From a virus: a DNA stretch of 48,075 bases. Shown here piece by piece: positions 1-47,214 of this stretch. The translations under genes were made by a program, and so were the position numbers. The notes beneath the pieces were generated by a model. The model saw nothing but the letters and a program-made list of their open reading frames with translations, did no database searches and had not been told where the DNA came from. Within the stretch, counting starts at the first letter, position 1; each line of letters begins with the position of its first letter. The stretch covers positions 1 through 48,075 of IMG/VR virus record IMGVR_UViG_3300025789_000058, one strand, 5' to 3'.

Positions 1-111
1 CTGTTGTATTTTCTTTTGAATTGAAATTTTATAATTCTTTTCACGTTCTTCTGAGGAACGTCTTGGAATTAGTATGTTTTCCTCTTTTAAGAAAGAAATT
101 AATTTTATCAT
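1..111 (-). CDS. LRR-family protein, second tandem copy (N-terminal 37 codons only)
   Basis: The first 37 codons of a gene that continues past the left edge. It starts at the ATG at 109-111. Its sequence is identical, base for base, to the start of the leucine-rich-repeat gene at 119-1021, so it is very probably a tandem paralogue. The N-terminus reads MIKLISFLKEENIL, a hydrophobic and basic leader with a possible prohead-protease site after L-K-E at residues 8-10. It follows the first LRR gene closely: that gene's stop is at 119-121. Whether the missing part also contains LRRs cannot be seen here. Confidence 0.75.
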   Translation of the reverse strand, partial: MIKLISFLKEENILIPRRSSEEREKNYKISIQKKIQQ

Positions 112-127: not shown

Positions 128-1021
128 AATAGTCCCTTTAATATCTCCACCTTGTTGAATTATTATATTTTTAATTTCTTCTTTAGTGTATTTTTTTGAG
201 ATAGGAGTATTACTTAAATATAAACTCCCTCCTACTTCTAAATTATCTGGTAGTGAAGTTATAGGAGTATTACTTAAATCTAAACTCCCTCCTACTTTTA
301 AATTATCTGGTAGTGAAGTTATTTTAGTACTACTTAAATCTAAACTCCCTCCTACTTCTAAATTATCTGGTAGTGAAGTTATAGGGGTATTAGTTAAATA
401 TAAACCCCCTCCTACTTTTAAATTATCTGGAAGTGAAGTTATAGGGGTATTAGTTAAATATAAACCCCCTCCTACTTTTAAATTATTTGGTAGTGAAGTT
501 ATAGGAGTATCTCTTAAATCTAAATGTCCCCCCACTTCTAAATTATCTGGTAGTGAAGTTATAGGGGTATCACTTAAATCTAAATCATCTCCTACTTTTA
601 AATTATCTGGAAGTGAAGTTATAGGGGTATTAGTTAAATATAAATCATCTCCTACTTTTAAATTATCTGGTAATGAAGTTATAGAGGTATTAGTTAAATA
701 TAAACCCCCTCCTACTTCTAAATTATCTGGTAGTGAAGTTATTTTAGTACCACTTAAATATAAACCCCCTCCTACTTTTAAATTATCTGGTAGTGAAGTT
801 ATTTTAGTACCACTTAAATATAAATCCCCTCCTACTTTTAAATTATCTGGTAGTGAAGTTATAGGGGTATTAGTTAAATCTAAATCACCTTTAGACCCAT
901 CTTTTATATACTGTTGTATTTTCTTTTGAATTGAAATTTTATAATTCTTTTCACGTTCTTCTGAGGAACGTCTTGGAATTAGTATGTTTTCCTCTTTTAA
1001 GAAAGAAATTAATTTTATCAT
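119..1021 (-). CDS. Leucine-rich-repeat protein with capsid-targeting-like N-terminus
   Basis: A 300-residue protein. After an N-terminal leader (MIKLISFLKE) and a charged linker to about residue 48, it consists of about eleven 20-residue LRR units, each close to TSLPDNLKVGGxLxLSxT. A short charged C-terminus follows. LRR domains usually bind proteins. The leader matches other genes of this window and resembles the T4 capsid-targeting sequence, with L-K-E at residues 8-10 as the candidate cleavage site. I infer, without proof, a virion-packaged LRR protein. Units differ mainly at the start of each strand (LYL, LDL) and the next turn (SGTKI, TNTPI, RDTPI). A tandem paralogue follows immediately downstream. 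Confidence 0.85.
   Translation of the reverse strand: MIKLISFLKEENILIPRRSSEEREKNYKISIQKKIQQYIKDGSKGDLDLTNTPITSLPDNLKVGGDLYLSGTKITSLPDNLKVGGGLYLSGTKITSLPDNLEVGGGLYLTNTSITSLPDNLKVGDDLYLTNTPITSLPDNLKVGDDLDLSDTPITSLPDNLEVGGHLDLRDTPITSLPNNLKVGGGLYLTNTPITSLPDNLKVGGGLYLTNTPITSLPDNLEVGGSLDLSSTKITSLPDNLKVGGSLDLSNTPITSLPDNLEVGGSLYLSNTPISKKYTKEEIKNIIIQQGGDIKGTIYK
241..900. repeat. 60-bp tandem repeat array encoding LRRs (11 units)
   Basis: Eleven units of exactly 60 bases in perfect register, most beginning aattatctggtagtgaagtt on the plus strand. The array has no indels. Differences are confined to a few positions per unit and recur in different combinations between units, as expected from recombination among repeats. 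Each unit encodes one 20-residue LRR on the minus strand. Confidence 0.95.
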
Positions 1022-27335: not shown

Positions 27336-29048
27336 TTAAACAATATTCAAGTCAGATACGAACAAGTTCGCATAGTATTCGGGACGAACCATTGTCATAG
27401 CGTAACGAGTCATAATGCCTTTTCTTGGAGTAAAGGTGTTAGGATCGTATACCAGAGGAGTCATGATCAATGGAACATATGGGGCATATACAGCACCACA
27501 CTCCAGGAATTGATTACCTCTAAAGCCCATCAGAATTACGTTCTCAGTCATGTATGGGTTTTTGTAAACCTTATAACGACTATTAAGAGCACCAATCTTC
27601 TGTACACCGAAAGCATACTTCATTGTGTCTGCTGCGCCATCAGTATCAGCTGCAAATCCTGGAATAGTTTCAAGGATAGTGGCTACTGCTGGAGAACATA
27701 CTAGGAAGTTTGCACCGCCACGCATTGTTTTCTGGTGGATGATATTAGAAAGCTTCTGCATCTTAATACCAATAGTCTGGAACCAAGTCATCTGAGTATA
27801 GTATACTCCACTTGTATTTGCAACAAATGCTGTACCAGTAGAGTTGATCTGATTACCAATCTTAGCTGACCAGTAGTCAACAGTTGGCGCCTTTTGAATC
27901 AGCATATCAAGAACTTCAAGATCAATTTCAAGAGTAATATACTCAGAAAGTAGACCAGTCAATTCAGCTTCAGCATCCAGAGAATGGTAAGCATTCAGAT
28001 CTTCTGCAAATTCTGGAGTCCATTGTGCTTTCAATTTACGAGTCTTTGCAGAGATAGTTTGGCTAACCATCTGAACGTTAACTTCAGGAATTGAAATAGA
28101 ACTAGGAGAATAAGCATTTGGTACAGATGGAGTACTTGTACGATCTTCAAAATCACCTATTGCGTTAAAGTCAGTCTGCTTATTATAGTATACAGTCATT
28201 AAGCTACCAGTCAGTAGGTTATTTGTTGCTGTAGGGAAAGTAGAAGAGCCACTTACAATTATAAAAGACAATGTATCTGTAATATTATTGTAAGAAGTAA
28301 ACTGATTTGCACTTGTAGTAGGATTTACTGTAGTTGCAAGACCAGCTACTGCACCAGTAATTTCAAAAGCACGAACACCGTACTGATTTAAATAAGGGAA
28401 TAATGTTGCACTAGCATTTGCAAAGTTTACAATTGCAACTGCGCCTGCAGCAACAGATGCAGAATAGTTTGCATCAAAATTAAGGTTTGCCCAAGAAACT
28501 TGAGAACCAGTCAATACTGAAGAGGCTGTATAGCTTGCACTAAATAAGTTTAATGAATACCCAAAAGTACCAGCGCCATAAAGACCACCTGTATTTGAGT
28601 TACCAAAATCCTTAGCATCTTTTGTACCATATACTGAGCCTCCTTGTGTAAAGCCAGGGTTACCAGCAGTACCATATTGGAAATCCAGATAGAATACTAG
28701 ACCAGCAGGCAGATTCATTGGCTGCACAGATACGAATTCTTTTGATGCTAATTGACCAAAGATTTTACGTACCAGTGGAAGAGCCACGCCAGCCCACTGT
28801 TCACCAGCGCCTGCTGTGAAAGTAGCACCTGAACCCGCAGAAGAGTTACCGCTTGATGTAGAAGTTTCAACTACAAGTTGCTTGGTTTGGTTTTCAAGAA
28901 TTTGCGCCATTGTGCGCTGATCATTTTCATTCAGGTTTTTCAATAGACCTGATTTAGCCCATTTCTTAACGAGCTTTTGAGATACCGCAAACTGAGTACC
29001 ATATGAACTCTGAGCGGTTTCTGTAAGTAGTGAATTTACTAAACTCAT
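27336..29048 (-). CDS. Major capsid protein (gp23-like)
   Basis: 570 residues; T4 gp23 has 521. It shows the HK97-type family pattern: an N-terminal propeptide region with LLTE at 7-10 and ILE at 50-52 as possible prohead-protease sites, then GEQWAGVALPLVRKIFGQ and FVSVQPMNLPAGLVFYLDFQ (T4 has a similar VGVQAMN...PTGLAF stretch). The C-terminal half contains RKLKAQWTPEFAEDLNAYHS, LDAEAELTGLLSEYITLEID and MTMVRPEYYANLFVSD at the end. A Gly/Ala-rich AGSGATFTAG motif at about 71-80 recurs in another head protein here. Codon choice has more C at third positions than most neighbours, as expected of a highly expressed gene. It is cotranscribed with the scaffold gene. Confidence 0.95.
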   Translation of the reverse strand: MSLVNSLLTETAQSSYGTQFAVSQKLVKKWAKSGLLKNLNENDQRTMAQILENQTKQLVVETSTSSGNSSAGSGATFTAGAGEQWAGVALPLVRKIFGQLASKEFVSVQPMNLPAGLVFYLDFQYGTAGNPGFTQGGSVYGTKDAKDFGNSNTGGLYGAGTFGYSLNLFSASYTASSVLTGSQVSWANLNFDANYSASVAAGAVAIVNFANASATLFPYLNQYGVRAFEITGAVAGLATTVNPTTSANQFTSYNNITDTLSFIIVSGSSTFPTATNNLLTGSLMTVYYNKQTDFNAIGDFEDRTSTPSVPNAYSPSSISIPEVNVQMVSQTISAKTRKLKAQWTPEFAEDLNAYHSLDAEAELTGLLSEYITLEIDLEVLDMLIQKAPTVDYWSAKIGNQINSTGTAFVANTSGVYYTQMTWFQTIGIKMQKLSNIIHQKTMRGGANFLVCSPAVATILETIPGFAADTDGAADTMKYAFGVQKIGALNSRYKVYKNPYMTENVILMGFRGNQFLECGAVYAPYVPLIMTPLVYDPNTFTPRKGIMTRYAMTMVRPEYYANLFVSDLNIV

Positions 29049-29080: not shown

Positions 29081-30181
29081 TTAAAGTCCTGCTAATTTTT
29101 GCATTCTTGCTACAAAAGAGTCAGATTCAACTGTGTTTATTTTTGGAGCATTTCCTGCTGGCTTTGAAGCAAAACCATATGATTCTTTAAGTTGTGCTTT
29201 TGGAGTAGCTACTACTGCTTCATTAAGAGTTGCATATACATTCTTAACTTCTTTTACTGTAGTTGCTCTATCAAATGCATTTAAAACCTTTACTTTTTGG
29301 CTTTCAGTAAGAGATTTAGTTTTGAAGATCTTATTAACATAAAGAAGTTTTGCATTTAGAAGATTTATTTCATTAAGCTCTTTTTGCATTTTCTTGATTG
29401 CTTTCTTAGCCTCTTCAAGTTCTTCAGCTTTAATTTTGTAGTCAGTTTCTTTTTCTGATGCCTTTACTGCTGCGCCTTTAGCACCTGCTACTTTTGTTTT
29501 TTTAGCTTCATCCATTTCTTCTTCTTCACCTTCTTCTTCAAGTTCTGCTAGAATTTCATCAAGAGAAACTTCTGAATCATCTGACATTTCTGGAGCTTCA
29601 TCACCATCTGGTTCTGCATGTGTGCCAGCCATAGCTGATTTAATTGCATCTACAAGATCACCAAGTGTAATATCAACTACTTTAGTCTCTTGTTCAGGCT
29701 CTTGACCATCTTCTTCTTCCTCCTCATCTTCTTCTTTAGCCTCATCCATTTCATAAGACTCGTCTAATTCATCCTCTTCTTGATCTTCTTCGCCATCTTC
29801 GTCCATTGAACTAAGTTCATCTAAGATTTCATCTAGACTATCTTCATCCATCTCTTCTTCATGATGCATTTCATCCATTTCGTCCATTTCTTCTTCTTCA
29901 TTTTCTTCCATCTCATCATATTCTTCTTCAAGGTCTTCTATTTCACCTTTAGGAGCTTTAGCTGGAGCATATCCTGCTTCATGACTACGAGATGATTTCT
30001 TTGTGTGAACAATATGTTCGCCTTCTTCCATTTCATCCATTTCAGATTCTACGATAGACTTACGAAGCATAGCCTTAATTTTTGGCTCAAAAGCCTCATG
30101 AATTGTTGCTTTTGCATTTGCTATAGCACTTTCTCTTACGGCTTTAGCATCAGCAATTGCTTGTGTGTAAATACTTTCCAT
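29081..30181 (-). CDS. Prohead scaffolding core protein (gp22-like)
   Basis: 366 residues; T4 gp22 has 269. Residues 50-225 are extremely acidic with long runs of E, D and M. The first 45 residues form an Ala-rich helix. The C-terminus has the family's LTESQKVKVLNAF, matching T4 gp22's LTESQKEKV, followed by a helix with TLNEAV. Such proteins build the inner core around which the capsid assembles and are then cut by the protease. It is transcribed after a terminator-promoter gap and directly precedes the capsid gene by 32 bases, so the two probably share a high-level transcript. Confidence 0.88.
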   Translation of the reverse strand: MESIYTQAIADAKAVRESAIANAKATIHEAFEPKIKAMLRKSIVESEMDEMEEGEHIVHTKKSSRSHEAGYAPAKAPKGEIEDLEEEYDEMEENEEEEMDEMDEMHHEEEMDEDSLDEILDELSSMDEDGEEDQEEDELDESYEMDEAKEEDEEEEEDGQEPEQETKVVDITLGDLVDAIKSAMAGTHAEPDGDEAPEMSDDSEVSLDEILAELEEEGEEEEMDEAKKTKVAGAKGAAVKASEKETDYKIKAEELEEAKKAIKKMQKELNEINLLNAKLLYVNKIFKTKSLTESQKVKVLNAFDRATTVKEVKNVYATLNEAVVATPKAQLKESYGFASKPAGNAPKINTVESDSFVARMQKLAGL

Positions 30182-32547: not shown

Positions 32548-33504
32548 TTATTTTAATTTTTTATGCTTTGCATAAATAGATTTAATCATTTCTGTGATTT
32601 TATCCATTGTCTTTCTGGTGTGAGTCATTTCTTTAAGCTCACTTCTAGAATTAAGTTCTTCTTTTAATTGAGTTAAATACTCCATCATTCTAGATATTTT
32701 ACCTAATTCTTTTCTTACTATACCTACTCCAGTATGATATTGCTCGGCATTATTACGCTCTTTTACTGCCTTTTTAAATCTTGAGTAACTTTCTTGCAAT
32801 TGATCTGATTCATCCCAAAGTGATTTATACTGAAATCCACCTTTTGATGGTCTATTTGGAATTGAAGGTGCTGGAGTGAAACCAAATTTATCTACATCAT
32901 ATATATGCTTACGCTCTCCTGCTGTAAGTTTTGGTTCTTTGTCTTTAGTCTCTTTTATTGGTCTATATTGTGTTGAGTACCCTGTTACAATTTTTCCATC
33001 TTTAGTTTTACCTGCAATTCTTACTCGACTTCCGTCTTTCATTATTCTAGTTATTGTAACCTCATCATATCCATATTTTACCTTATCTCCTACTTTAACT
33101 TCAGAGCCATCGTGTATTTTAGCAGATTTTAATTTTGCAAATATACGATCAGAGTCAGATTTAAACTTTCCTGATTCTTGTGAAGTGTATATATTATCTT
33201 TTTCTGGAGATCTATGATTCTGCGCCTCTTTTTTTATTTTTTTCCCTATTGGCGCAGCATAGGCCATTCCAGGTCCAGGAGTAAATGTAGCACCACTACC
33301 AGCAGTTGCTCCACCACTTGTTGCAGACATTTCATCTAAAGTTATATTATGCTTAGAAAGAAAATCTTGCAGATCTTTAATATTTAATTTTCCAGATTGT
33401 ATTGCCTGTGCTATTGAATTTGAAATATTCCCAATTTCATTTTTAACATCTGTTAGACTTTTTTCTTCTTCTAGAAGATGACTCATCATTGAATGTATAT
33501 CCAT
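32548..33504 (-). CDS. Charged head-region protein with capsid-like Gly/Ala motif
   Basis: 318 residues. It starts MDIHSMMSHLLEEEKSLTD, an amphipathic lead with L-x-E. Residues ~60-90 hold GGATAGSGATFTPGPGMAYA, which shares AGSGATFTxGxG with the capsid protein's N-terminal region. A KOW/SH3-like unit follows (VKVGDKVKYGYDEVTITRIM), and the C-terminus is helical and basic. Function is unknown. It is in the T4 gene 67/68 position, with stop and start of adjacent genes 3-28 bases apart. It may be an inner-core protein, a packaged protein or a capsid accessory. Confidence 0.65.
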   Translation of the reverse strand: MDIHSMMSHLLEEEKSLTDVKNEIGNISNSIAQAIQSGKLNIKDLQDFLSKHNITLDEMSATSGGATAGSGATFTPGPGMAYAAPIGKKIKKEAQNHRSPEKDNIYTSQESGKFKSDSDRIFAKLKSAKIHDGSEVKVGDKVKYGYDEVTITRIMKDGSRVRIAGKTKDGKIVTGYSTQYRPIKETKDKEPKLTAGERKHIYDVDKFGFTPAPSIPNRPSKGGFQYKSLWDESDQLQESYSRFKKAVKERNNAEQYHTGVGIVRKELGKISRMMEYLTQLKEELNSRSELKEMTHTRKTMDKITEMIKSIYAKHKKLK

Positions 33505-37400: not shown

Positions 37401-37618
37401 TAATTTTGGGCCAAATTTAGATTTACGCCATACGCAGTAGATGTAGTATAGACTTTGTGAAATCTATCTATAAGACTATTTGTCTGGATAACGCCATTTG
37501 ATTGGATATTATCTGGATCCATAACACTTAGCATATTACCGCCATCATTACGGATTATTACATCAGTACTAAATAGTCTTCTTAATGCTGAAAATAGATT
37601 TTGTTGATTATTTGCCAT
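34409..37618 (-). CDS. Portal protein (gp20-like) interrupted by an intein
   Basis: 1069 residues in one open frame; without the intein (residues 104-535) the mature portal is 637 residues, compared with 524 in T4. Portal signatures: N-terminal SLIDRFHKVYTTSTAYGVNL, and in the C-extein LIEDAMLIHRITRAPERRVF, DFFIPVRGNDSTTRIDTAKG, LEYNGIDDVAYFREKLFAAL and IPKAFMGYEKDLTGKATLA. The portal forms the dodecameric DNA gate and the scaffold for terminase docking. The frame runs 10 bases after terminase, so the two are cotranscribed. The intein inserts after DIIADE, and the first extein residue after it is Cys. Confidence 0.95.
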   Translation of the reverse strand: MANNQQNLFSALRRLFSTDVIIRNDGGNMLSVMDPDNIQSNGVIQTNSLIDRFHKVYTTSTAYGVNLNLAQNYQSARVQIYADYDAMDTDAIIASALDIIADECLGADTVIPLLDGTKKTIKELYDSGAKDIWIYGLDEKTNEFRPVKAEKVAYNGKKRVYKITFDDGTEVKATSNHIWIDSGGSQITTSDIKIGTSILALSTKISEGTSMPGYEKIWSGDKFEYTHRIVANQVPFLKEQRNQIPAKEKPVVHHDSFDKRNNNPNFLKWVGWNEHNKIHAEYNKNLWVSINSDPSKKNDYYVKLMEGQKHFWENVDKQSFLKKKSDSMKSYMENLSSEERKIVYGHRGSKNGMYGKGYKISKEKNGRYNTQTTRKKSINLAYIIDRIKNDPHKNILGDIQKELNIITFEWRKIIRDLFAVYKCNNTKTLINKILSNHSADTIIKFRSYCNNTYKEGKRFLVSDFCNSNSITINKLRRIVLGNGYSTLEDFAKSSNHKVVSIEECGYEDVYDIVNAGDNHIFAIEAKDGSKIYTHNCTLKNEQGQVLTIRSSDETIQKLLENLFYSVLNIEFNLWSWIRNMCKYGDFYLKMEISEKYGVYNVIPFSAYNIVRQEGYNPHNPNEVRFKFDPNAALSATSGYTSAFNNQDPGVWFDNYEMAHFRLIGDVNYLPYGRSYLEPARKLFKQYTLIEDAMLIHRITRAPERRVFYVNVGAIPPNEVENYVQKMINKMKKTPLIDPNTGQYNLKYNQQNLLEDFFIPVRGNDSTTRIDTAKGLEYNGIDDVAYFREKLFAALKIPKAFMGYEKDLTGKATLAAEDIRFARTIERIQRIIASELKKIALVHLYANGYTDDSMANFSLSLTNPSIIYDQERIALFKEKIDLANQSIEGNILPREYVWENIFHMSPDSFGELEDMIVEDQKRKFRYDQITTEGNDPLESGQAYGTPHQIAGLYGGQKVLNVPTGYNETNPNEPVKLPGRPRKYKSTFGTDSSAFGRDGIGRYGMKSNAETGEDSLKPKYKGGPMSFESTMAVYLKNKESLEKMFPGKKVSLFEEKSEESSLLDERNIKED
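36014..37309 (-). mobile_element. Intein in portal gene with HNH endonuclease domain
   Basis: 432 codons. The N-terminal splice motif is CLGADTVIPLLDG, the B block is GTEVKATSNHIWID (Thr-x-x-His), and the C-terminal motifs are VYDIVNAGDNHIFAIEA and IYTHN|C. Between them is an HNH-type nuclease: VVHHDSFDKRNNNPNFLKWV (His-His and Asn residues in register) with a GSKNGMYGKG NUMOD3-like DNA-binding motif. Terminal residues C1, N432 and the +1 Cys extein residue are all present, so splicing should be possible. Removal restores the frame exactly. Confidence 0.92.
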
Positions 37619-37627
37619 TTTATATTT

Positions 37628-40336
37628 TTATATTAACCATGAAATATCCTCTGAATGAGTACCTCCCATATGAGGAATATCCATTTTCCAAGGATTTGTA
37701 TTTGAATTATTTATTGAATTATATATTAAATTTGAATTTCCTGATTTAGTCATAGAGTCAAGACTAGCATAAGTTAAGCTCTCTGCAGTTTTTCTAAATC
37801 TTATAGATGAGTCTCTCATATACATGCCTATTGCAAAAGACATTACTAAATCATCATTATATCCACTTAGCGCTTGAGGTTTGCTATTTTTCCATATAAA
37901 AACTCTCAATTCTTCTAAAAGCCTCACTGATCTTATATTGACCTGCTTTGTCTCTATAAAATCTCTCATTCTTTCAATAATAATAGGTCTTGATTTTGTA
38001 GTCATTGTAAATCCAGGAACTAGAGTACTAGTATTATCAAATCTATTCATTTGCTTGTCCTGATCTAGACTAAAATCTGCTTTATGACTATAATGTAAAT
38101 TTGTATATCCTCTTTCTAAAATAGATTGAAGAACATCCCAACCAATATTTGCATTTTCTACTGCAACTAGAGCATTATTATATTCTGCAGCTGTTGCTAA
38201 TATTATATTTGCATATTCTCGTGTATCACACTGAGATTGAAATTCTGCTACTTGAGTTAATGTATCTACATCAATTACATGAAATGCTGAGTAGTCTGCA
38301 CCATCACCTCTAGCAACATCTGCTGAAAGTAGATATGTTTTTGTAGGAGCTGGATATTCCCAAATCCATAATGATTTATCTAACCCTCTTCTTTCTAAAG
38401 GTTCTAATACTATATTCTCTTCATACCATGAAAGTATTTCTGGAATTATTACTGTAGCACCAGAACTTGAGAAATCGCAATCGCAATTATGAACTATACC
38501 ATGTTCTGTTACATATGTATGATCTTCTTCAACTTCTATATTATAAACATAACATTCATATTCGCCCTCTAAGTCTTCTTTTATTAATTTTGCTTTTCTA
38601 TCTCCACCTAAATATATGCTAGATAACTCTTCATTTTTTGTTTTTAAAAAAGATCCATTAAATTTAGGATGACATATACACATTCTTCCTAATATTTCAG
38701 ATATATAAGGATCTAAATTTTTTGGATATTTAATACTTATATTATTAGCCCCCAATAAATTAGATAAATAATAAATATCATAATACAGATCTTCAGATGT
38801 TGTTATATATTGCTTATTATAATCTAATTTTAAACATCCACCCCCTAGTAAATATCCTTCTAATACACCTTTAGATAATTCTATATTATTATTATTATAG
38901 TAAAAATTAGATAATTTTTTATTTATAGAACTATCGCCTTCTACAAACATAGAAATTACTTGAGAAATTATTTCTGAGCATATAGAAATCTGACCCGTAT
39001 TATCTTGTCTTCTTATATTAAAGGAGCTTACTCCAAATACAAGTTCTATATATTTTTGTAAATCTTGCACCCATGTATTTAATTCTGTAGAATAATTAAA
39101 TGCATATGTTACTCTTAATCTAGTCTTAGATCCTTCAGCTAAATATAATCCTATTATCTTTCCTAATTCATAACCTAATTCTATATTACAATTATGCTTT
39201 ATTTTATGTTTTCTGTCATTTATATAAAAAGTAGAACCAGCGCATATTTTTTTAAAATGTAAAGGATTAAATAATTCATAAATATCTATAGTATCTATTT
39301 CTCTTTTTAAATTTATGTTTTTTGGTATAGTATATACTTCATCTATCTTAGAAATAGCATCATATTTATTACTATTTTCATTAGATAAAAATGGGTGATC
39401 TTTTGTAACATAAACACATTTAGAATTTTTACTGGTTTTTATTTTGTATAAATCATTACTTTCTTTTTTATATAATCTTTTTACTCTTTTAAAATTTCCA
39501 ATGTGAGTTAATACTAAATCATCAATTTTTATATCTTTTATCTCTTTTAATCCTACTGATGTAAAAATTCTAGTATTTGCACTAAAACACTCTTGTGCCG
39601 CCATTCTTATTCCAAGATCTTGATCTTGTTTATCTCTCCAAATTTGAGTTCTTTCAGGATGTACTGTCCATGGAAGTGATACAGGCACAAAACTATTTTC
39701 TTTCTTCTGAGCTTTTATATAGGATTTATGAAACCAATTACCAACACCATTAGGAGTAGATAGCGCTATACACTTACCACCAGTTGCTAATGTTTGTTGA
39801 GCTGAGCCAAAAAGTTCTTCTGCATTATCGATAAATGCAGCCTCATCCATTATAAGTAATGATACAGCTTCAGAACGTGCTGAATCACTAGCTCCAGATA
39901 CTGCTTTAACTTGACTGCCATTTGTAAGTCTTAAACTAAGTCTATTATCCTCAGTAGATCCAATCTTAAGCCAAATAGGTAGATTATCATATGCAAATCT
40001 TACTTTAGTAACCATATTCTTAGCCGTCTCTTGCTTTGTTGCAATAACTAAGACGTTTTTATCTTTATGGAATAACATCAACCACAGACTATATGCTGAT
40101 GCTAAAGTAGATATACCTAGCTGCCTTGATTTATTTATAATAACATTTTTATCCCCTGAAAATAATTTTAATACTGCCTCTTGAAATGGATATAAATCAA
40201 ATAACTGCCTCCCTCTTTGAGGGTGTTGAATCATATAATATTTTCTCATAAAATAGACAGGATCTGTAGCACATTTTACAAACTCCTCTCTAATTTTATC
40301 TTTTATATTAAGTTGTTTATTTTCATTTTCTGGCAT
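37628..40336 (-). CDS. Terminase large subunit (gp17-like) interrupted by an intein
   Basis: 902 residues; 534 without the intein. T4 gp17 has 610. ATPase: NKSRQLGISTL at 69-79 as Walker A, LLIMDEAAFID at 160-170 as Walker B, LSTPNGVGN as the coupling motif. Nuclease: SADVARGDGADYSAFHVID with D673, LVAVENANIGWDV with the Glu, and GYNDDLVMSFAIGMYMR with the final Asp. The intein inserts at AAQE before Cys-Asp-Cys-Asp, between ATPase and nuclease. It packages DNA into the prohead. Its ATG is preceded by a promoter-like motif at 12 bases. The gene lies next to the portal gene, as expected. Confidence 0.96.
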   Translation of the reverse strand: MPENENKQLNIKDKIREEFVKCATDPVYFMRKYYMIQHPQRGRQLFDLYPFQEAVLKLFSGDKNVIINKSRQLGISTLASAYSLWLMLFHKDKNVLVIATKQETAKNMVTKVRFAYDNLPIWLKIGSTEDNRLSLRLTNGSQVKAVSGASDSARSEAVSLLIMDEAAFIDNAEELFGSAQQTLATGGKCIALSTPNGVGNWFHKSYIKAQKKENSFVPVSLPWTVHPERTQIWRDKQDQDLGIRMAAQECFSANTRIFTSVGLKEIKDIKIDDLVLTHIGNFKRVKRLYKKESNDLYKIKTSKNSKCVYVTKDHPFLSNENSNKYDAISKIDEVYTIPKNINLKREIDTIDIYELFNPLHFKKICAGSTFYINDRKHKIKHNCNIELGYELGKIIGLYLAEGSKTRLRVTYAFNYSTELNTWVQDLQKYIELVFGVSSFNIRRQDNTGQISICSEIISQVISMFVEGDSSINKKLSNFYYNNNNIELSKGVLEGYLLGGGCLKLDYNKQYITTSEDLYYDIYYLSNLLGANNISIKYPKNLDPYISEILGRMCICHPKFNGSFLKTKNEELSSIYLGGDRKAKLIKEDLEGEYECYVYNIEVEEDHTYVTEHGIVHNCDCDFSSSGATVIIPEILSWYEENIVLEPLERRGLDKSLWIWEYPAPTKTYLLSADVARGDGADYSAFHVIDVDTLTQVAEFQSQCDTREYANIILATAAEYNNALVAVENANIGWDVLQSILERGYTNLHYSHKADFSLDQDKQMNRFDNTSTLVPGFTMTTKSRPIIIERMRDFIETKQVNIRSVRLLEELRVFIWKNSKPQALSGYNDDLVMSFAIGMYMRDSSIRFRKTAESLTYASLDSMTKSGNSNLIYNSINNSNTNPWKMDIPHMGGTHSEDISWLI
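38486..39589 (-). mobile_element. Intein in terminase gene with degenerate LAGLIDADG domain
   Basis: 368 codons. It begins CFSANTRIFTSVGLKEIKDI, has the B-block VYVTKDHPFLS, and ends YNIEVEEDHTYVTEHGIVHN|C. A LAGLIDADG pair lies between: the first motif is ELGKIIGLYLAEGS, the second VLEGYLLGGGCLK, where the acidic residue of the canonical GxxxGDG is Gly. Terminal splice residues are present, so protein splicing should work; endonuclease activity is doubtful. The end is inside the terminase nuclease lead-in, a site where inteins are often seen. Confidence 0.92.
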
Positions 40337-40432: not shown

Positions 40433-40882
40433 CTATGTAGTTTCAGGTTTTTCTACTGGAGTTTCTTCTTTTGGAATTTCAGATTTAGGTCCTATTTCTG
40501 ATTCTGGTCCTTGAGCTTTTGCTGGAGCGCCAAATCTTTGTAATCTTGATATTGCAGTAGTAGCTCTTTGTATTTCTGCTATATTTAAAAGATAGTATCT
40601 CTTTCCTAATACAGTTGCTTCATAGGCTTTGCCCATATAAGTCATATAAAATATTTGACTATTTTTAAGAAGTACTTTAAATGTAGTAGGTTTTTCAGAC
40701 ATAATAAACACTCCAGAAAGATATTCTTTAAAATTATCACCCATGAGCGTAATAAGATTTTGATTTAATCTTTTATACTTTTTAAGAATATATCCCATCG
40801 GATCAGCATCAAATTCTGGATTTGAATGATCTTCATGAACTTCTTTTATTATTACTTTTAGTATATCTGCTAATTTTATCAC
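40433..40882 (-). CDS. Small protein with capsid-targeting-like N-terminus
   Basis: 149 residues from a GTG start at 40880-40882 that overlaps the nuclease stop (GTGA), so translation is coupled. The leader reads MIKLADILKVIIKEV with I-K-E at residues 12-14, longer by four residues than its relatives. The middle has beta strands (TTFKVLLKNSQIFYMTYMGK, GKRYYLLNIAEIQRATTAIS), and the last ~40 residues are Pro/Glu-rich and disordered. The function is unknown. It ends the cargo gene block, just before terminase. It is probably packaged if the leader acts as in T4. Confidence 0.65.
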   Translation of the reverse strand: MIKLADILKVIIKEVHEDHSNPEFDADPMGYILKKYKRLNQNLITLMGDNFKEYLSGVFIMSEKPTTFKVLLKNSQIFYMTYMGKAYEATVLGKRYYLLNIAEIQRATTAISRLQRFGAPAKAQGPESEIGPKSEIPKEETPVEKPETT

Positions 40883-41523
40883 TTTTTTTCAAATTTAAAT
40901 CCTGTTAATTTTTCAATCTCTTCAAGATCAGTTTGCCAATGATCTAATCCTAATGGATGATCTGTTGAATTTTTAAATATATAAGACTTAAATTCGCCAG
41001 TCTTTTTAATATAAATAACTTTCCAACATGCCGTAGGAATAGTTAAAGATTTTATTTTTTTAGCACATCCCACTGATCCACACCATACATATATAGAGTC
41101 ATATTTAAGAGCTAATTTTCTAGTTTGAGTTTCTAATGATTTCCAATCTCCAGCATTAAGAGAGTGATATTGTGGAGCCATATTAGAAAAATAAAAACAC
41201 TCTTGTAAAAGTTTTTTATCTCCACATTCATTATCTGCTGCAGGACACATATGTCCACGATCAGTACCAGAACCCACATAATCTTTTGCTAAATTAGTCT
41301 CTTCATATAGAAGTGGATCTGGTGCAAATGCATCTTGTCTAGGGAGTGGAGTAGAACATTCAACTCTAGCTTTAGTCTCCCACCATTGTACTAATACTGG
41401 ATAATGTAGACTTTTTGAATATGTAGTAGTATATCCAGTATGATATACTGTTACTGTGTCTTGACCATAGCAAATGAGTATAGATAATATACTTACTATA
41501 ACTAATAATATTATTTTTTTCAT
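40879..41523 (-). CDS. Exported DNA/RNA non-specific endonuclease
   Basis: A 214-residue NUC1/Serratia-type nuclease. The catalytic motif TDRGHMCPAAD (H91) and the metal-binding pattern FSNMAPQYHSLNAGDWKSLE (N123) are both intact. I chose the ATG at 41521-41523 because it begins a clean signal peptide (MKKIILLVIVSILSILICYG) ending in a G-Q cleavage site of the type common in Bacteroidota; an upstream ATG would add 17 charged residues. The enzyme should be exported to the periplasm, where it could degrade nucleic acid, for example during lysis or against infecting DNA. It is likely host-derived. It overlaps the upstream stop region slightly and the following gene by four bases. Confidence 0.88.
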   Translation of the reverse strand: MKKIILLVIVSILSILICYGQDTVTVYHTGYTTTYSKSLHYPVLVQWWETKARVECSTPLPRQDAFAPDPLLYEETNLAKDYVGSGTDRGHMCPAADNECGDKKLLQECFYFSNMAPQYHSLNAGDWKSLETQTRKLALKYDSIYVWCGSVGCAKKIKSLTIPTACWKVIYIKKTGEFKSYIFKNSTDHPLGLDHWQTDLEEIEKLTGFKFEKK

Positions 41524-41542
41524 ATTTATATTTAATATTTGA

Positions 41543-41980
41543 CTAATGTGATGATCTCTCTTGTGCATACTCATTTACGCTATGAATATAATCGCTTGCT
41601 AATGTTATATATGCTGCAACCCATCCTGGAAGTTCAGTTCCTGGTTGTATTATATTATATAATTGACTTGCATTTTTAATCATATCTTTGATTTCTGCTC
41701 TTGCCATAGTAGCCTGATGTCCAGAGTCTGGTTGACCCCATACATCATTTTCATGAGATTCTTTACCACAATCTGAACAATAACCATTAGGTTCTATTTG
41801 ACCATCACATTCTAAACATGTCATATCTTCAATTGGATAAATTGATTTTATTGAATTCATATCTTGATTTTGTAAAGATGGCATTGTATATGAATCTCTG
41901 CTTTCATTACCATATGATATTCTAGGAGTCTCTTTTGAATTTCCAGTAAATTCTTTTATAAATTGTGATAATTTTATCAT
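41543..41980 (-). CDS. Zinc-ribbon protein with capsid-targeting-like N-terminus
   Basis: 145 residues. The leader MIKLSQFIKEF has I-K-E at 8-10. A zinc ribbon follows: C55-x2-C58-x9-C68-x2-C71. The C-terminal helix pair (ATMARAEIKDMIKNASQLYN, then LPGWVAAYITLASDYIHSVN) is one I associate with other phage proteins of unknown function. It may bind nucleic acid through the ribbon. It has its own promoter-like motif 13 bases upstream. If the leader is a capsid-targeting signal, the protein is packaged and trimmed. Confidence 0.72.
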   Translation of the reverse strand: MIKLSQFIKEFTGNSKETPRISYGNESRDSYTMPSLQNQDMNSIKSIYPIEDMTCLECDGQIEPNGYCSDCGKESHENDVWGQPDSGHQATMARAEIKDMIKNASQLYNIIQPGTELPGWVAAYITLASDYIHSVNEYAQERSSH

Positions 41981-41993
41981 ATTTTTATTTTTT

Positions 41994-42001
41994 TATAAAT
42001 A
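41994..42001 (-). promoter_or_regulatory. Putative late-promoter motif upstream of zinc-ribbon gene
   Basis: Plus-strand TATAAATAT, 13 bases before the ATG at 41980, in the short gap after the 80-residue gene. Confidence 0.35.
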
Positions 42002-42012
42002 TTAATTATTTT

Positions 42013-42255
42013 TTATTCTTTTACAGAAAACCAGTCACTACACCACTTATTTGGATCTTCTATATCCATAACTCCACTCCCATTCCAAGACTGAAAATAT
42101 TGATTTCCACAAATATGCTGATCATTAGTAAAATGATAATATTTACATTTTGCACAGCTAAAACCATGTTCACTATACATAAAAGGTTCGTGATTTGAAG
42201 GAAGATCTATAGGACCTTTATTTTCCTCTTGTAATATTTTTATTAAACTTATCAT
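42013..42255 (-). CDS. Small four-cysteine protein with capsid-targeting-like N-terminus
   Basis: 80 residues. The leader MISLIKILQEEN has L-Q-E at 8-10. Four cysteines follow (C34-x2-C37-x11-C49-x22-C72), with an HxICG segment and a C-terminal WCSDWF, spaced like small iron-sulfur or zinc proteins of the HiPIP-like type found in phages. The function is unknown. It begins directly at the stop of the preceding PD-(D/E)XK-like gene (one base apart), so they are cotranscribed. Confidence 0.7.
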   Translation of the reverse strand: MISLIKILQEENKGPIDLPSNHEPFMYSEHGFSCAKCKYYHFTNDQHICGNQYFQSWNGSGVMDIEDPNKWCSDWFSVKE

Positions 42256-43272
42256 TTATATCTCTTTAGAATGATTAAATAATTTTTCTGGATATATTCC
42301 AAATCTGGCATTTTCTATTCCAGCCTGATTATGTCCATACCTATATGATACGGCCATTATTGGATTATATTCACCAGTAGGAACATTTCCATATTCATAA
42401 ATTCCATGCGTTCCTATTAATTTATATACAGACCCTGATTTTTTTATTCCTAAATTACCTATAACTAATATTTGCACTTTATTTAATCCAAAGCTCTCTC
42501 CAACTCCAAATACTGACTGCTCTTTTAATTCATTACTTTTAATATTTCTATAATAAGAATCACGCGGATTTATAATATAGTCATATTCTTTTTTTTCATC
42601 TAACTCTTTTTTAGATTTAATAACTGCTTTAACATCTTTTACAAAATTTTCTACTTCCTGATTTGAATTTTTTATAAAATAGTTTATTCCACTATATTGC
42701 TGATATTTTGTTCCTCCTTTATGAGATACAAATATTTCATCTCCACTATCAGAAAATAATACATAATCTGCTTTTTTATTAGTATAATCTCTTCTTCCTC
42801 CAATTATATTTTTATATACTTTTCCATCTTCTAATTCTATATCAACTGATCCTCCAAATTTATCAAGATCTGCTAAAAAAGATTCAAGTCCAGACTGTTC
42901 TCCTTTTGCACCTCTTAAATTTTCAGCTTTTGATACTACTATATAAACCTCTTGACCTGTTTTATAATCCCCAATATCACTATTTATTTTTATTTTATAG
43001 GTTTCATATATAGATGATTTTGAACCTGCAGAGTAGTCTTTTCTGTCTATTTTATTTAGACTATAGTTTTTTTCTTTTACTCCTAAAGACTCCATAATAT
43101 TCTTTATTACCTCATCTGGTTTATCGGATTCGGGTATTATATATCTAAGATGCTCTCCACGACTTATTTTTCTGCCACCTCTATATCCTCTATGATCAAG
43201 TTCTTTTTGTATATCATTAAATAATGGCATACTTGTTTTTATTTCAAATAATAAATCAATAAGTTTTATCAT
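42256..43272 (-). CDS. PD-(D/E)XK-like protein with capsid-targeting-like N-terminus
   Basis: 338 residues. The leader MIKLIDLLFEIKT has L-F-E at 8-10. The likely nuclease motif is KADYVLFSDSGDEIFVSHKG: D169, then an S-x-K (residues 183-185) in the place of the usual E-x-K, with QQYSGI following. This pattern resembles phage proteins with a restriction-endonuclease-like fold. The last quarter has a compact beta region (GVGESFGLNKVQILVIGNLG). It might digest host DNA after ejection, or protect phage DNA; both are speculative. It starts three bases after the endolysin gene. Confidence 0.65.
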   Translation of the reverse strand: MIKLIDLLFEIKTSMPLFNDIQKELDHRGYRGGRKISRGEHLRYIIPESDKPDEVIKNIMESLGVKEKNYSLNKIDRKDYSAGSKSSIYETYKIKINSDIGDYKTGQEVYIVVSKAENLRGAKGEQSGLESFLADLDKFGGSVDIELEDGKVYKNIIGGRRDYTNKKADYVLFSDSGDEIFVSHKGGTKYQQYSGINYFIKNSNQEVENFVKDVKAVIKSKKELDEKKEYDYIINPRDSYYRNIKSNELKEQSVFGVGESFGLNKVQILVIGNLGIKKSGSVYKLIGTHGIYEYGNVPTGEYNPIMAVSYRYGHNQAGIENARFGIYPEKLFNHSKEI

Positions 43273-43275
43273 TTT

Positions 43276-43866
43276 TTATTTTATAGAATTATAAATAATA
43301 TTAAAGTTTTTAATTCTTTCTTCTATCCCAATATGACCCCCATTTACACATTTTGTTACTGCTGTTACTGCTTCTACTGATGCATCTGTACACTTTGATA
43401 GACATCTTTGAAAAAACCATGCTGCTGAAGCTAGTGGATATTTAGTAGAAACTAGATCTGGGTTTGCTACACAATCTTCTCCTATTGCTTTTGAAAATAG
43501 GGCGTAATTATCTTTTCCGGTAAGTTGAATATATCCTCTGCCTCTAAATTTATATCCCTCTCCAGATATTTCTGAACCATTGCCCATTCTATTAGCATAT
43601 ATTAAATTAGCTATTTTTTCAGGTTTACGTTCATATAAATTGGCTTTATCATCAGTAGGAAAATACTTGCTAAATATAGATCTTAATCCTTTAGCTCCAT
43701 AATTTAGATTCTCAATAATTGATTTAAAATTTCCAGATTCGTGCATTACTTGTGCTAAAAAATGAGCTAATTTTAATGGCGTATCTAATCCAAATTTAGC
43801 TATTGTATCTGGTAATTGCTCTATAACATTATCAGGAATATGTCCTTTTAATTTTTGAATATCCAT
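43276..43866 (-). CDS. GH19-type endolysin (chitinase-like lysozyme)
   Basis: 196 residues. Motifs: LAHFLAQVMHESGNFKSIIE with catalytic E43, NLNYGAKGLRSIFSKYFPT, RMGNGSEISGEGYKFRGRGY, YIQLTGKDNY and LASAAWFFQ. This is the pattern of glycoside hydrolase family 19 phage endolysins, which cut peptidoglycan sugar chains. No signal peptide is present, so it relies on the adjacent holin. The three-base spacing and order holin then endolysin make a lysis cassette. Confidence 0.9.
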   Translation of the reverse strand: MDIQKLKGHIPDNVIEQLPDTIAKFGLDTPLKLAHFLAQVMHESGNFKSIIENLNYGAKGLRSIFSKYFPTDDKANLYERKPEKIANLIYANRMGNGSEISGEGYKFRGRGYIQLTGKDNYALFSKAIGEDCVANPDLVSTKYPLASAAWFFQRCLSKCTDASVEAVTAVTKCVNGGHIGIEERIKNFNIIYNSIK

Positions 43867-43869
43867 ATC

Positions 43870-44187
43870 TTAATTTTCAATGGGTTTATCACTATTAGTT
43901 TTCTGTGTTCCAAAATAATATGAGAATATCATTAGAGTTAATGTCTTAATCATATCAAATAACTGATTACTCATTTCATCAGTCAATAATTTAATCTTAA
44001 ATGCAATTACTTTATCTACTATAAATAAGGCAACTAAAGATGCAAATATCATTAATATAAACCTAACTAATACATCTCTAGTTTGATGTATAAATAATTT
44101 ATTAACATAGACTGCTGATCCTATTATGAAGCCAAGCCCCATAACTATACCAGAAATCATTATTATCATATTATCACTTGAAAACAT
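43870..44187 (-). CDS. Holin-like membrane protein
   Basis: 105 residues with three hydrophobic helices: about 7-27 (IIMISGIVMGLGFIIGSAVY), 39-63 (VRFILMIFASLVALFIVDKV) and 76-95 (FDMIKTLTLMIFSYYFGTQK), plus a short charged C-terminus (TNSDKPIEN). That layout and its place directly before the endolysin gene fit a class-I-like holin. It could instead be another small inner-membrane protein. The start follows the basic 156-residue gene by 11 bases. Confidence 0.75.
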   Translation of the reverse strand: MFSSDNMIIMISGIVMGLGFIIGSAVYVNKLFIHQTRDVLVRFILMIFASLVALFIVDKVIAFKIKLLTDEMSNQLFDMIKTLTLMIFSYYFGTQKTNSDKPIEN

Positions 44188-44198
44188 ATTTTAAATTT

Positions 44199-44669
44199 TT
44201 ATGACTTTACTAATTTTATTTTATCAATAAAATCTGCTCGGCGTATTGCTGGGATTTTTTTTATTTTTTCGATTATACCATCGATTATAGTTTTATCAAA
44301 TTTATCAAATGGTGCTGGATCTACTTTTACACTAATATCTACAATATATTTTTTAAGTTTTTCTGCGGATGGCTGCCGATTATTTGTAACACGTACTACA
44401 GTAATACCTGTGATAGCTCTTATATCAGAGAGAATATCTGCAAGAGATCTTTGAGTAGTATCTGCCATAAGTGTACCATTTATTTGATATATTTTAGGAC
44501 TAAGTGATTCTTCTACAGTTGAGTTTATTTTTTTAGCCGCAGCGACTGCCTTTTTAAAAGCTACACCACCTTTACGAGCAGGTTTCTCTCCTCGTTTATG
44601 TTTAGCTTGAATATTTGCCCAAAGTCCAGGTTTATTGACTTCTTTTAATATGTCTATTAATTTTATCAT
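44199..44669 (-). CDS. Basic protein with capsid-targeting-like N-terminus
   Basis: 156 residues. The leader MIKLIDILKEVNK has L-K-E at 8-10. Right after it comes the basic motif PGLWANIQAKHKRGEKPARK followed by KAVAAAKKIN, which looks DNA-binding; I associate the LWANI-AK-K motif with other phages. The C-terminal half (residues ~60-156) alternates strands and helices (DILSDIRAITGITVVRVTNN) and may be a small alpha/beta domain. I infer a packaged DNA-binding protein. It follows the cupin-like gene with one base between. Confidence 0.7.
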   Translation of the reverse strand: MIKLIDILKEVNKPGLWANIQAKHKRGEKPARKGGVAFKKAVAAAKKINSTVEESLSPKIYQINGTLMADTTQRSLADILSDIRAITGITVVRVTNNRQPSAEKLKKYIVDISVKVDPAPFDKFDKTIIDGIIEKIKKIPAIRRADFIDKIKLVKS

Positions 44670-44670
44670 A

Positions 44671-44928
44671 TTATAATTTTAATATTTTTATTTTTAGTAA
44701 CCCTCTCCCCTTTATTACTCTATGCCACACTCCTCTGGGTATAAATATTTGACCTTTTATTTCAATTGGTAAATTATTATCTAATTGAAATTTCCAATCT
44801 GCGCTGTCTATAGATTCTATTATTCTGTCTTCTTTATCTCTGTGCCACTGTAATTCTATAGGATCAATATTCTCATCAAATTCTCTGATCAAAACTTCAT
44901 TTTCTAAAACATCTTTATATGGTCTCAT
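44671..44928 (-). CDS. Small cupin-like protein
   Basis: 85 residues. The motif IELQWHRDKEDRIIESIDSA, then W-F-Q-L-D, IKGQIFIPRGVWHRVIKGRG and a final strand LLKIKIL match the two-motif pattern of a small single-domain cupin. His and Glu residues (WHRDKED, WHR) could bind a metal. The function is unknown; similar short phage proteins exist, in my memory, without a known substrate. It follows the DUF5872-like gene with one base between, so it is in the same operon. Confidence 0.65.
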   Translation of the reverse strand: MRPYKDVLENEVLIREFDENIDPIELQWHRDKEDRIIESIDSADWKFQLDNNLPIEIKGQIFIPRGVWHRVIKGRGLLKIKILKL

Positions 44929-44929
44929 A

Positions 44930-45529
44930 TTACCAAAATCCTGAAAAATTACTTTTTAATCCTAAAAGTTTTGCAAATCGTGGCAATCTGCATGCCCACC
45001 AGCCAGCTTGAGTTTTATCTTTTTTCTGTGCGCATTTATGTCTTGCTGCAAAGCTCTTTCTGGCTGCTGGATTATTAATTTTAGCCTTAAGCCCAGTAGT
45101 ATCTCCAAAACTAACCTTCTTTATCTTTCCTGTCTTGGGATTCCTGACAAATACATAAAACTTCTTGCTGCCTCCTCTATGTGGTTTATTGAGCTCTACA
45201 TGCTTTTTTGGTTTAGACTTTGCTTTAACCTCTAGTAAAAAATCAATTGTCATTGGGTAGTCTAGCGGAACTGATATGCCATTGTAGTTTCCGGTTAATC
45301 CTAGATCAGTTTCTGTCAGGTACCATGTATCTTCATCGCCTAATGATAAAAGTCCTCTATTTAGCAACTGACGCGCTTCTGTGAAAAGAGCCACAAAGTT
45401 TGCTGATTGAGGACGATAAATATTTTCATTTAAATCAAGTGAATTGTCCAAATGATAAGCAAGCCCCTCAGATATAAGGAGCTTGTTTACAGATTCATCT
45501 AAAGTTATCTTGCTTCTATCACAGCACAT
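44930..45529 (-). CDS. DUF5872-like basic phage protein
   Basis: 199 residues. The C-terminal 90 residues (HRGGSKKFYVFVRNPKTGKI, then KVSFGDTTGLKAKINNPAAR, KSFAARHKCAQKKDKTQAGW and WACRLPRFAKLLGL) form a domain I recognise as a conserved phage DUF. The Cys-x..-Cys pair and Arg/Lys suggest a nucleic-acid or metal site, but it is not defined. The N-terminal half (RQLLNRGLLSLGDEDTWYL, TIDFLLEVKA) is a separate domain. It begins one base after the Dps-like gene. Confidence 0.7.
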   Translation of the reverse strand: MCCDRSKITLDESVNKLLISEGLAYHLDNSLDLNENIYRPQSANFVALFTEARQLLNRGLLSLGDEDTWYLTETDLGLTGNYNGISVPLDYPMTIDFLLEVKAKSKPKKHVELNKPHRGGSKKFYVFVRNPKTGKIKKVSFGDTTGLKAKINNPAARKSFAARHKCAQKKDKTQAGWWACRLPRFAKLLGLKSNFSGFW

Positions 45530-45530
45530 A

Positions 45531-45905
45531 TTAGTGTAAATATTGTAGTTTATAAAGGGTTGTCTCTATCAGCTGGTAGATCTCATCAATTAGATTCTGA
45601 AGATATGTGTCTTGTGGAAGTCTAGTTCTAATAGTATCTACATATTTAGATAGAGCCATAAAATAAACTATAGGATCATTATCTTCTCTAAAAATTGCTG
45701 GACCGTCATATTCAGTAATAATTCCATATTTGCCTTGATATGCTTCTACCCACTCATCTACTAGATCAACTATCTCATCATAGTATTCATTAAGAGCTTT
45801 ATGTTCAGCAAAAGAAGAATCTCCTTGAGCTTGCCAATGAAATATATGAGCTTGTGTTCTCGAAGCTAAAAGAGTTGATACGAATTTTGGTACAAACGGA
45901 TTCAT
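45531..45905 (-). CDS. Dps/ferritin-like helical protein
   Basis: 124 residues. Residues ~14-60 (ASRTQAHIFHWQAQGDSSFA, then EHKALNEYYDEIVDLVDEWV) have the layout of a Dps-like helix pair with His and Glu residues at metal-binding spacing, followed by a second helical pair. The protein is shorter than a full Dps (about 160-170). It could bind iron or DNA, or be a phage-specific relative without iron activity. It lies between the DUF3008-like and DUF5872-like genes. Confidence 0.65.
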   Translation of the reverse strand: MNPFVPKFVSTLLASRTQAHIFHWQAQGDSSFAEHKALNEYYDEIVDLVDEWVEAYQGKYGIITEYDGPAIFREDNDPIVYFMALSKYVDTIRTRLPQDTYLQNLIDEIYQLIETTLYKLQYLH

Positions 45906-45910
45906 ATTTT

Positions 45911-46687
45911 TTATTTTAAATCTAATTTTTTAATTGTATCTACTATAAATTTAGCAGCATCTTTAGAAGAATATCCAAATTCTTTTGCAATTCTTTTTAC
46001 AAATGATTCAACCATTTTTTGCTCAGCAGATAAATTACTAGAAATTTCATCCATATAATTTTCATTTAAATCTTCTTTATCCCCTTCTTCTTTTTTAGAT
46101 TTAGAAACTTTTTCAAGTTTACTCATCAAATTTTCTATTTGAGATGATATAGCGGAAATATGATCTTTGTGCTCTGATGCAGTTTTAGGATTTTCTTTAA
46201 TCGCTTTTATATGATCTTTGCGCTTCTTTTCAAGTTTATCAATTGTAGTAGTTAATTTTTTAGCTACACTATCTTTCTTCTCTTCTAGCTTTTTCATATC
46301 ACCTTCATATTGTTTATGAATATCTTCTGCTACTTTTTTAGCCTCATCTTGAGTTGGATATACACCATGTATAGTCTGATGATCAATACCATGATGTTGA
46401 GCGCCCATTACTGGATCAATTTGTTTAACCATATTATCAGGAGTACATCCAGGATATGGCTTAAGTACTGTATGAATAGTACCTATTGCATTATCATAAT
46501 TTTCTTTTACTACTTTCTTTTTAGTAGGAAGTCCTTTAGTTTTAGTAGAAGCAAACTCTTTTGCTGATTTCTTTGTCATTGATTTAGCTAGTTTAGATAT
46601 TTTTTTTGATGGAGATTTCATTTTTCCTGTTTGCACAGCATGAACCATGCCCATTAAATGTTGTTGTGATTTTGATTGACTTGGCAT
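45911..46687 (-). CDS. DUF3008-like basic/coiled-coil protein
   Basis: 258 residues. The start MPSQSKSQQHLMGMVHAVQT with KSAKEFASTKTKGLP at about 40-54 is a DUF3008-type domain, common in phages and of unknown function. The middle has HTVLKPYPGCTPDNMVKQID. Residues ~120-205 are a long Lys/Glu coiled coil, and the last ~40 residues (VKRIAKEFGYSSKDAAKFIV) are a small helical domain. It overlaps the preceding gene's stop by one base, so translation is coupled. It may be a packaged or scaffold-type protein. Confidence 0.7.
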   Translation of the reverse strand: MPSQSKSQQHLMGMVHAVQTGKMKSPSKKISKLAKSMTKKSAKEFASTKTKGLPTKKKVVKENYDNAIGTIHTVLKPYPGCTPDNMVKQIDPVMGAQHHGIDHQTIHGVYPTQDEAKKVAEDIHKQYEGDMKKLEEKKDSVAKKLTTTIDKLEKKRKDHIKAIKENPKTASEHKDHISAISSQIENLMSKLEKVSKSKKEEGDKEDLNENYMDEISSNLSAEQKMVESFVKRIAKEFGYSSKDAAKFIVDTIKKLDLK

Positions 46688-47214
46688 TATATGTATATTA
46701 AATAATTATTTTTCTTTTTTAATTCTGGATAAATTTTAATGATTTTATTCATTATCATATCCACAATTCTTTCTCTTGATTTTGATACTGGATTAAATTC
46801 TAATTTATTTGGTTTTTTATTTAATAAATATTTTGGTATTATTTCATTAATTAATATTTTATAAATAGTATTTATTTTCCTATCATCTGGGCAAGATTTT
46901 ATAACTGTGGGATCTTTTAATAATTTAGGATTAAAAACTATTGGCGCGTCTTCATTTACTTTATATCCACTTTTAAACTCCTTAACTCCTATAATATACA
47001 CTGCTATAATAATATTGCCGCATCTATCCTCAAACTCCCATGCTACGTGATCTCCTAAAAATTTTCCACTAGAATACTCTGATTTACGATAATCATATGT
47101 AGAAAATTCATCTATTTTTAATTCATTTAATTTAATATACTTTTCTTCTAATAAGTCTGAGGCGTTATGCCCTTCTATAGACCACTCTTTTAATAAATTA
47201 AAAAAATCTTTCAT
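46687..47214 (-). CDS. Unknown protein with capsid-targeting-like N-terminus
   Basis: 175 residues. The leader MKDFFNLLKEWSIEGHN has L-K-E at 8-10, the T4-like Phe version of the common leader. Residues ~35-95 are beta-rich (YRKSEYSSGKFLGDHVAWEF, RCGNIIIAVYIIGVKEFKSG); the C-terminus is basic and helical. I recognise no family. A promoter-like motif lies only 4 bases before the ATG. It is the first visible cargo-type gene after the zinc-ribbon and metallopeptidase genes. Confidence 0.6.
   Translation of the reverse strand: MKDFFNLLKEWSIEGHNASDLLEEKYIKLNELKIDEFSTYDYRKSEYSSGKFLGDHVAWEFEDRCGNIIIAVYIIGVKEFKSGYKVNEDAPIVFNPKLLKDPTVIKSCPDDRKINTIYKILINEIIPKYLLNKKPNKLEFNPVSKSRERIVDMIMNKIIKIYPELKKKNNYLIYI

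Follow-up and report, generated by a model that had tools for sequence, protein, structure and literature searches.

The 48,075-base stretch analysed here (the window) is a complete IMG/VR virus record of a T4-like phage with a GC content of 31%, whose nearest isolate by major capsid protein (MCP) is Flavobacterium phage immuto (53% identity). A number of its proteins begin with the same kind of 10-residue leader, M-[IK]-x-[LF]-x-x-[ILF]-[LI]-x-E10. We consider it highly likely that these leaders are capsid-targeting sequences (CTS) of the T4 kind, enlarged into a general loading system with interchangeable classes. By analogy with T4 and judging from the sequences, the tagged proteins would very probably be loaded into the head for injection into the next cell. 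The leader columns matched those of the T4 CTS, the pattern recovered gp21 substrates of T4, leader classes were swapped between phages, and leaders were absent from gp21-negative controls. These results supported the original prediction, which had proposed a modular system for loading cargo into the head.

Leaders at gene starts in the window and in related phages

The leaders that had been predicted at six gene starts (40882, 41980, 42255, 43272, 44669 and 47214) were all present, five with the glutamate at position 10 and the 40882 protein with it at position 14. Both paralogous LRR proteins (starts at 1021 and 111) carried one as well. A slash marks the presumed cut:

82..111, minus strand: leader of the second LRR paralogue, identical to that of the first; gene start at 111, running off the left window edge
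992..1021, minus strand: MIKLISFLKE/E, leader of an LRR protein (119-1021)
40841..40882, minus strand: MIKLADILKVIIKE/V, GTG start, leader with a 4-residue insertion on a 149-residue protein (40433-40882)
41951..41980, minus strand: MIKLSQFIKE/F, leader of a 145-residue zinc-ribbon-like protein (41543-41980); homologues read MIKLISLLNE (L086) and MIKLASLLNE (L089)
42226..42255, minus strand: MISLIKILQE/E, leader of an 80-residue Cys-rich protein (42013-42255); E10 kept in 5 of 5 homologues from other phages
43243..43272, minus strand: MIKLIDLLFE/I, leader of a 338-residue protein (42256-43272, phrog_13937); E10 invariant in A3
44640..44669, minus strand: MIKLIDILKE/V, leader of a 156-residue basic protein (44199-44669); a homologue reads MIKLISILQE (L087)
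47185..47214, minus strand: MKDFFNLLKE/W, leader of a 175-residue protein (46687-47214), the weakest of the set

The second LRR copy is not an independent case, since its N-terminus is identical to that of the first and the gene is cut by the window edge. Apart from this pair, synonymous differences between the leaders ruled out the recent duplication of a single leader at the DNA level. The domains downstream of the leaders were indeed unrelated to each other, as had been claimed. The 40882 family occurs with both 14- and 10-residue leaders, represented by the homologues MIKLKDILKKILKE and the insert-free MIKLLDILKE/V (L086). At another locus (L103) a single 625-residue frame joins the domains of the 40433-40882 and 42256-43272 proteins behind one leader. 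The leader genes of the window flank the holin-endolysin pair upstream of the terminase.

A motif search of gene starts had been suggested along with the leaders, and we applied the proposed pattern, fixed beforehand, to relatives with the window excluded. Among 14 gp21-positive relatives it matched 23 of 2,269 gene starts, whereas column permutation gave an expectation of 0.35 (at most 3 in 200 runs). Two of the relatives (G004 and G008) are near-duplicates and slightly raise the raw count. There was no match at any of 8,495 internal Met positions, and none among the 357 genes of crAss001, phi14:2 and phiST (two Cellulophaga phages and one Bacteroides phage), gp21-negative controls with no S77 protease match. 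In 60 families chosen only for M1, I2 and L/F4, columns 7, 8 and 10 carried a Kullback-Leibler divergence of 1.34, 1.49 and 1.35 bits, respectively, compared to 0.40, 0.59 and 0.25 bits in columns 5, 9 and 11. Genes with leaders of classes A, C and D (see below) were also overrepresented near the terminase: 29 of 50 were found within 15 kb of it versus 12.3 expected, nearly all of them on the terminase strand.

Two details of the original prediction were not confirmed. The protein starting at 43272 had been labelled 'PD-(D/E)XK-like', but it matched no Pfam family above the cut-off and its predicted fold reached a predicted local distance difference test (pLDDT) score of 40. Potential nucleases had also been counted among the cargo, and the sole clear nuclease in this region (40879-41574) has no leader. 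It is a DNA/RNA non-specific endonuclease (PF01223, E=3e-35) encoded amid the leader genes, and its signal-peptide-like N-terminus suggests that it is probably exported, not packaged. Among other features of this region, we observed a basic GLWANIQAKHKRGEKPARKGG module in 44199-44669, which recurs in varied protein contexts in related phages, and a basic RHKCAQKKDKTQAGWWACRLP module in 44930-45529. The terminase frame (37628-40336) contains an intein-like insertion, and the portal frame (34409-37618) seems to be interrupted likewise.

Comparison with T4 and the classes of leader

Mutagenesis of the T4 IPIII CTS assigned targeting mainly to residues 4 and 7 and processing to residues 8 and 10 (as summarised in PMC9026906), which are the conserved columns of the leaders described here. 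Run on T4, the E-at-10 pattern picked IPII, IPIII, gp24 and gp61.1. IPII and IPIII carry the documented CTS (MKTYQEFIAE) and gp24 (MAKINELLRE) is annotated as cleaved by gp21; the N-terminal propeptides of gp24 and the internal proteins (IPs) have 10-20 residues (PMC5694885). The short propeptide of gp24, itself a gp21 substrate (PMC5694885), shares its spacing with class A leaders and with the MCP N-terminus of this group, although gp24 is a shell protein and not cargo. As a separate observation, gp61.1 (L165, 18966-19130) starts with the CTS-like MKTFKEFIKE followed by NISIGTTSGAVVNKGP, which resembles gp23 just past its cut (NIAAGQTSGAVTQIGP); by this resemblance it is a candidate for an unrecognised T4 head protein.

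The head genes of the window include the presumed leader-cutting enzyme:

27336-29048, minus strand: MCP, a gp23/phrog_138 protein
29019..29048, minus strand: MCP N-terminus MSLVNSLLTE/T, in the same register as the leaders; relatives read MANLVQSLLSE
29081..30181, minus strand: gp22-like scaffold protein, assigned from position and composition
29084-29107, minus strand: last residues of the scaffold, RMQKLAGL, a motif reused as class D leader in relatives
30369-30998, minus strand: gp21-type (S77) head maturation protease, presumed to cut the leaders (phrog_207, E=4.6e-44)

The earlier claim that the phage encodes a gp21-like protease was thus confirmed by the phrog_207 match and by the conservation of the His, Ser and Asp positions in the alignment with T4 gp21. 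An S77 homologue was present in 11 of the 12 relatives searched. A core-like protein (32548-33504, starting with MDIHSMMSHLLEE) contains SATSGGATAGSGATFTPGPGMAY, which is similar to an MCP segment past the presumed mature-shell cut.

With the T4 CTS of the internal proteins IPI-IPIII (Mullaney and Black 1996, reviewed in PMC9026906) the leaders share their length of 10 residues, their N-terminal position on unrelated proteins, hydrophobic residues 4 and 7, (L/I)8 and E10, as well as a gp21-type protease in the same genome and a varied set of accessory genes. In T4, however, three IPs and Alt are involved, whereas here we found up to about ten recognisable leader genes per phage, dozens in phage LR756508, several distinct leader classes and enzyme-like cargo. 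We regard the system as a new, enlarged variant of T4 capsid targeting, with a larger scale and several types of tag. The three T4 IPs inhibit different Type IV restriction enzymes and have only the leader in common (PMC12373910). They provide the closest functional precedent by analogy, which is not evidence for the function of the cargo proteins described here. No IPI-III family was named when the window cargo was scanned against Pfam and PHROGs, although no direct comparison with IPI-III was made.

Two further systems are comparable. The ADP-ribosyltransferase Alt of T4 is packaged in its head, and gp21 cleaves it at ITE-6. This packaged enzyme resembles the proteins described here in its short (L/I)-x-E leader, and one class A protein of LR756508 (L301:4967-5401) weakly matched Tpt1/ART; however, no Alt homologue was identified, and other cargo is of kinase, nucleotidase and N-terminal nucleophile (Ntn) hydrolase types. 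In the giant phages SPN3US and phiKZ a prohead protease likewise trims the N-termini of internal proteins, the ejection proteins, but it cuts at A-x-E or S/A/G-x-E and thus differs in P3 specificity, and most SPN3US propeptides are longer than 100 residues. A limited literature search found no earlier description of such leaders outside T-even phages, which does not prove absence, and no virion proteomics of Mel-JY01.

There are at least four sequence classes of leader, which swap on homologous cargoes: A (MIKLxDILxE), B (MKKSELKxLIKExL), C (NFDLKKFLxENKL..LLxE) and D (KRMQKLAGIIxE). Class A cargo alone fell into 51 clusters when all sets were pooled, and the cargo repertoire differed from phage to phage. 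Single cargo families carried different classes depending on the phage, namely FAM 126 (B, D and a short A-like leader), FAM 626 and FAM 122 (A and B) and FAM 159 (C and D). Leaders that act as modules of equivalent function should show such swaps. An unsupervised comparison of N-terminal 25-mers in LR756508 (a 484-kb phage, first 305 kb) gave 155 strong pairs between non-homologous proteins versus 1, 1 and 2 in the controls, which were two internal segments and the C-terminus. The same 305 kb (L290-L305) hold dozens of small leader-bearing proteins around the head genes, including a paralogous 'YRG' family with class A-like leaders. In two other loci (L229 of G009, and L161) we observed a very short leader type, M[KR]IRI(I/V)KE, on cargo families that have class A or B elsewhere.

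Class D relates to the scaffold. The motif [LMIW]Q[KQRE][LITV][AS]G[IVL] occurred 59 times at the extreme C-terminus of proteins and 32 times close to the N-terminus of unrelated ones, with no mid-protein case in 1.2 million residues. The owners of the 59 C-terminal motifs are scaffold proteins encoded beside the capsid gene, like the window protein ending in RMQKLAGL, and 24 of the 32 N-terminal cases lead directly into [LIV]-x-E. From these positions we infer that the scaffold tail may be an assembly contact, and that class D cargo may take the same contact with a release site added. A similar origin of class C from a scaffold segment was considered and is not claimed: a stretch of T4 gp22 looks alike (EWLAENKLAV...), but no scaffold of this group was found to contain the motif.

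Candidate cargo proteins, the presumed cut site and alternative readings

Most cargo proteins matched no known family. Across the group, the remainder included a zeta-toxin-like kinase, an NT5C nucleotidase, a nucleotidyltransferase, the weak Tpt1/ART-like match, LRR proteins and a predicted Ntn hydrolase; the immuto nucleotidase is gp087 (MKKVMGNLADLLLE). Further leader-bearing proteins of immuto are KNV73_gp231 and gp093, which would start with SLFPF and VISPT after the cut, gp003, gp076, gp077 and gp092 of class C, and gp083 of class D, which would start with SQFNE. Such enzyme-like domains, together with a repertoire that varies between phages, speak against the leader-bearing proteins being components of the assembly core like T4 gp67 and gp68, which would be cut up and lost and not delivered to the host. 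Core proteins likewise enter proheads and are gp21 substrates (PMC5694885), and some leader genes are close to the head genes. However, leader cargo lacks the abundance of (L/I)-x-E that marks core and scaffold proteins: there were 4.9 such sites per 100 residues in scaffolds and 4.6 in T4 core proteins compared to about 0.9-1.25 in leader cargo, and the enrichment of loose (L/I)-x-E sites was 1.8-fold for scaffolds and 2.6-fold for the core proteins of T4. By contrast, class A, C and D cargo was depleted of strong internal sites ([LIVFM][LI]xE), with 23 compared to 45.4 expected from shuffles (ratio 0.51), whereas leaderless genes had 319 compared to 342 expected (0.93). The seven window cargoes alone, with 3 strong internal sites versus 3.3 expected, are too few to show depletion. 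We therefore regard a role as core components as unlikely.

The position of the cut is best addressed by a class A protein of a relative that also has homologues of several window cargoes (L114, 2705-3598). This protein reads MIKLIDLLKE/CVIAAV. Its homologues have unrelated leaders of 5-20 residues, and in every complete one (L/I)-x-E abuts an invariant Cys. In an AlphaFold2 model (pLDDT 75) residues 1-8 were disordered and the fold began at residue 12. Foldseek matches with E<=1e-3 were Cys Ntn hydrolases, such as IAT, bile salt hydrolase (BSH) and penicillin V acylase (PVA), and one structural-genomics protein. VIA-align (Z 15-18.7) paired residue 11, the Cys, with the mature N-terminal residue of NAAA (126), IAT (103), BSH (2), PVA (1) and acid ceramidase (143). 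On the basis of the model, this cargo is predicted to be a Cys Ntn hydrolase with its catalytic Cys at the mature N-terminus.

Cys Ntn hydrolases need a free N-terminal Cys, and since (L/I)-x-E abuts the Cys, a cut after E10 would expose the catalytic nucleophile. Of the indirect evidence on where the cut falls, the (L/I)-x-E/Cys junction is the strongest. The family resembles choloylglycine hydrolase, IAT, PVA and NAAA in its predicted fold and N-terminal Cys. Known Cys Ntn hydrolases mature through Met removal or self-cleavage, whereas the junction (L/I)-x-E/C of this family implies activation by the head protease. Of the tested records with the Ntn-hydrolase gene, the three longest (the contigs of L114 and L316, and MA9V-1) also have an S77 protease. 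The MA9V-1 genome showed a few MKxFxxFINE/A leaders and no strong peak at E10.

The same junction, found behind leaders of very different length, bears on a second alternative, in which the leader would be an amphipathic helix that binds a membrane or the tail and has nothing to do with head loading, and (L/I)-x-E would be incidental. The helical spacing of the hydrophobic residues and the location of one class B family near baseplate genes would fit such a helix. However, E10 is conserved although no helix needs it, leaders are absent from the gp21-negative controls, and T4 IPs and gp24 show the same pattern, which leaves this explanation very improbable. An artefact of composition, in which the AT-richness of the genome would make I, K, L and E frequent and MIKL a cheap start, was rejected through column permutation, the internal-Met and gp21-negative controls and the retention of E10 in homologues, and its probability is negligible.

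Some observations weigh against the proposed capsid targeting. In the capsid protein, the site cut to give the mature shell is LVVE, with V at P3 ([LI][VIT]xE in general), and the motif of the protease is therefore only approximately L/I-x-E. Large residues are frequent directly after the cut in the window leaders (V, F, E, I, V, W, E), compared to A, S or D at the T4 sites seen. The S77-positive RM378 showed no enrichment of the pattern, one relative (G007) had no strict class A, C or D leader, and the 47214 protein had no homologue among the sequences gathered. The conserved class B family near the baseplate genes suggests that class B may be a different helix or serve more than one purpose. 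Furthermore, a simple caller supplied the gene starts, and homologues from related genomes do not count as independent cases.

A proposed system for head loading and activation

From the analogy with T4 and the logic of the sequences, we propose that the leader docks cargo into the prohead core late in infection, probably as a short amphipathic helix that makes contact through residues 4 and 7. The gp21-type protease would then cleave after (L/I)-x-E and release the cargo within the head, DNA would be packaged around it, and the cargo would be ejected into the next host cell. We further lean, with less confidence than for capsid targeting itself, towards a general system of head loading and activation. 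Here leader classes would mimic assembly surfaces, class D being a copy of the scaffold tail with a protease site, and the head protease would free the cargo and activate some of it, such as the predicted Ntn hydrolase whose nucleophile would become N-terminal only after the cut. Activity would thereby be tied to capsid maturation.

If this is true, a short tag reveals which gene products uncultured T4-like phages inject into their hosts. As the packaged T4 proteins are anti-restriction factors (PMC12373910), the tag would allow the likely counter-defence and takeover proteins of environmental phages to be catalogued directly. The leaders would also represent new natural tags for packaging proteins into phage heads, one of them apparently borrowing the binding tail of the scaffold, and the contact site of CTS leaders would become testable. 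An enzyme activated by a head protease that exposes its catalytic Cys would connect capsid maturation to effector activation in a new way.

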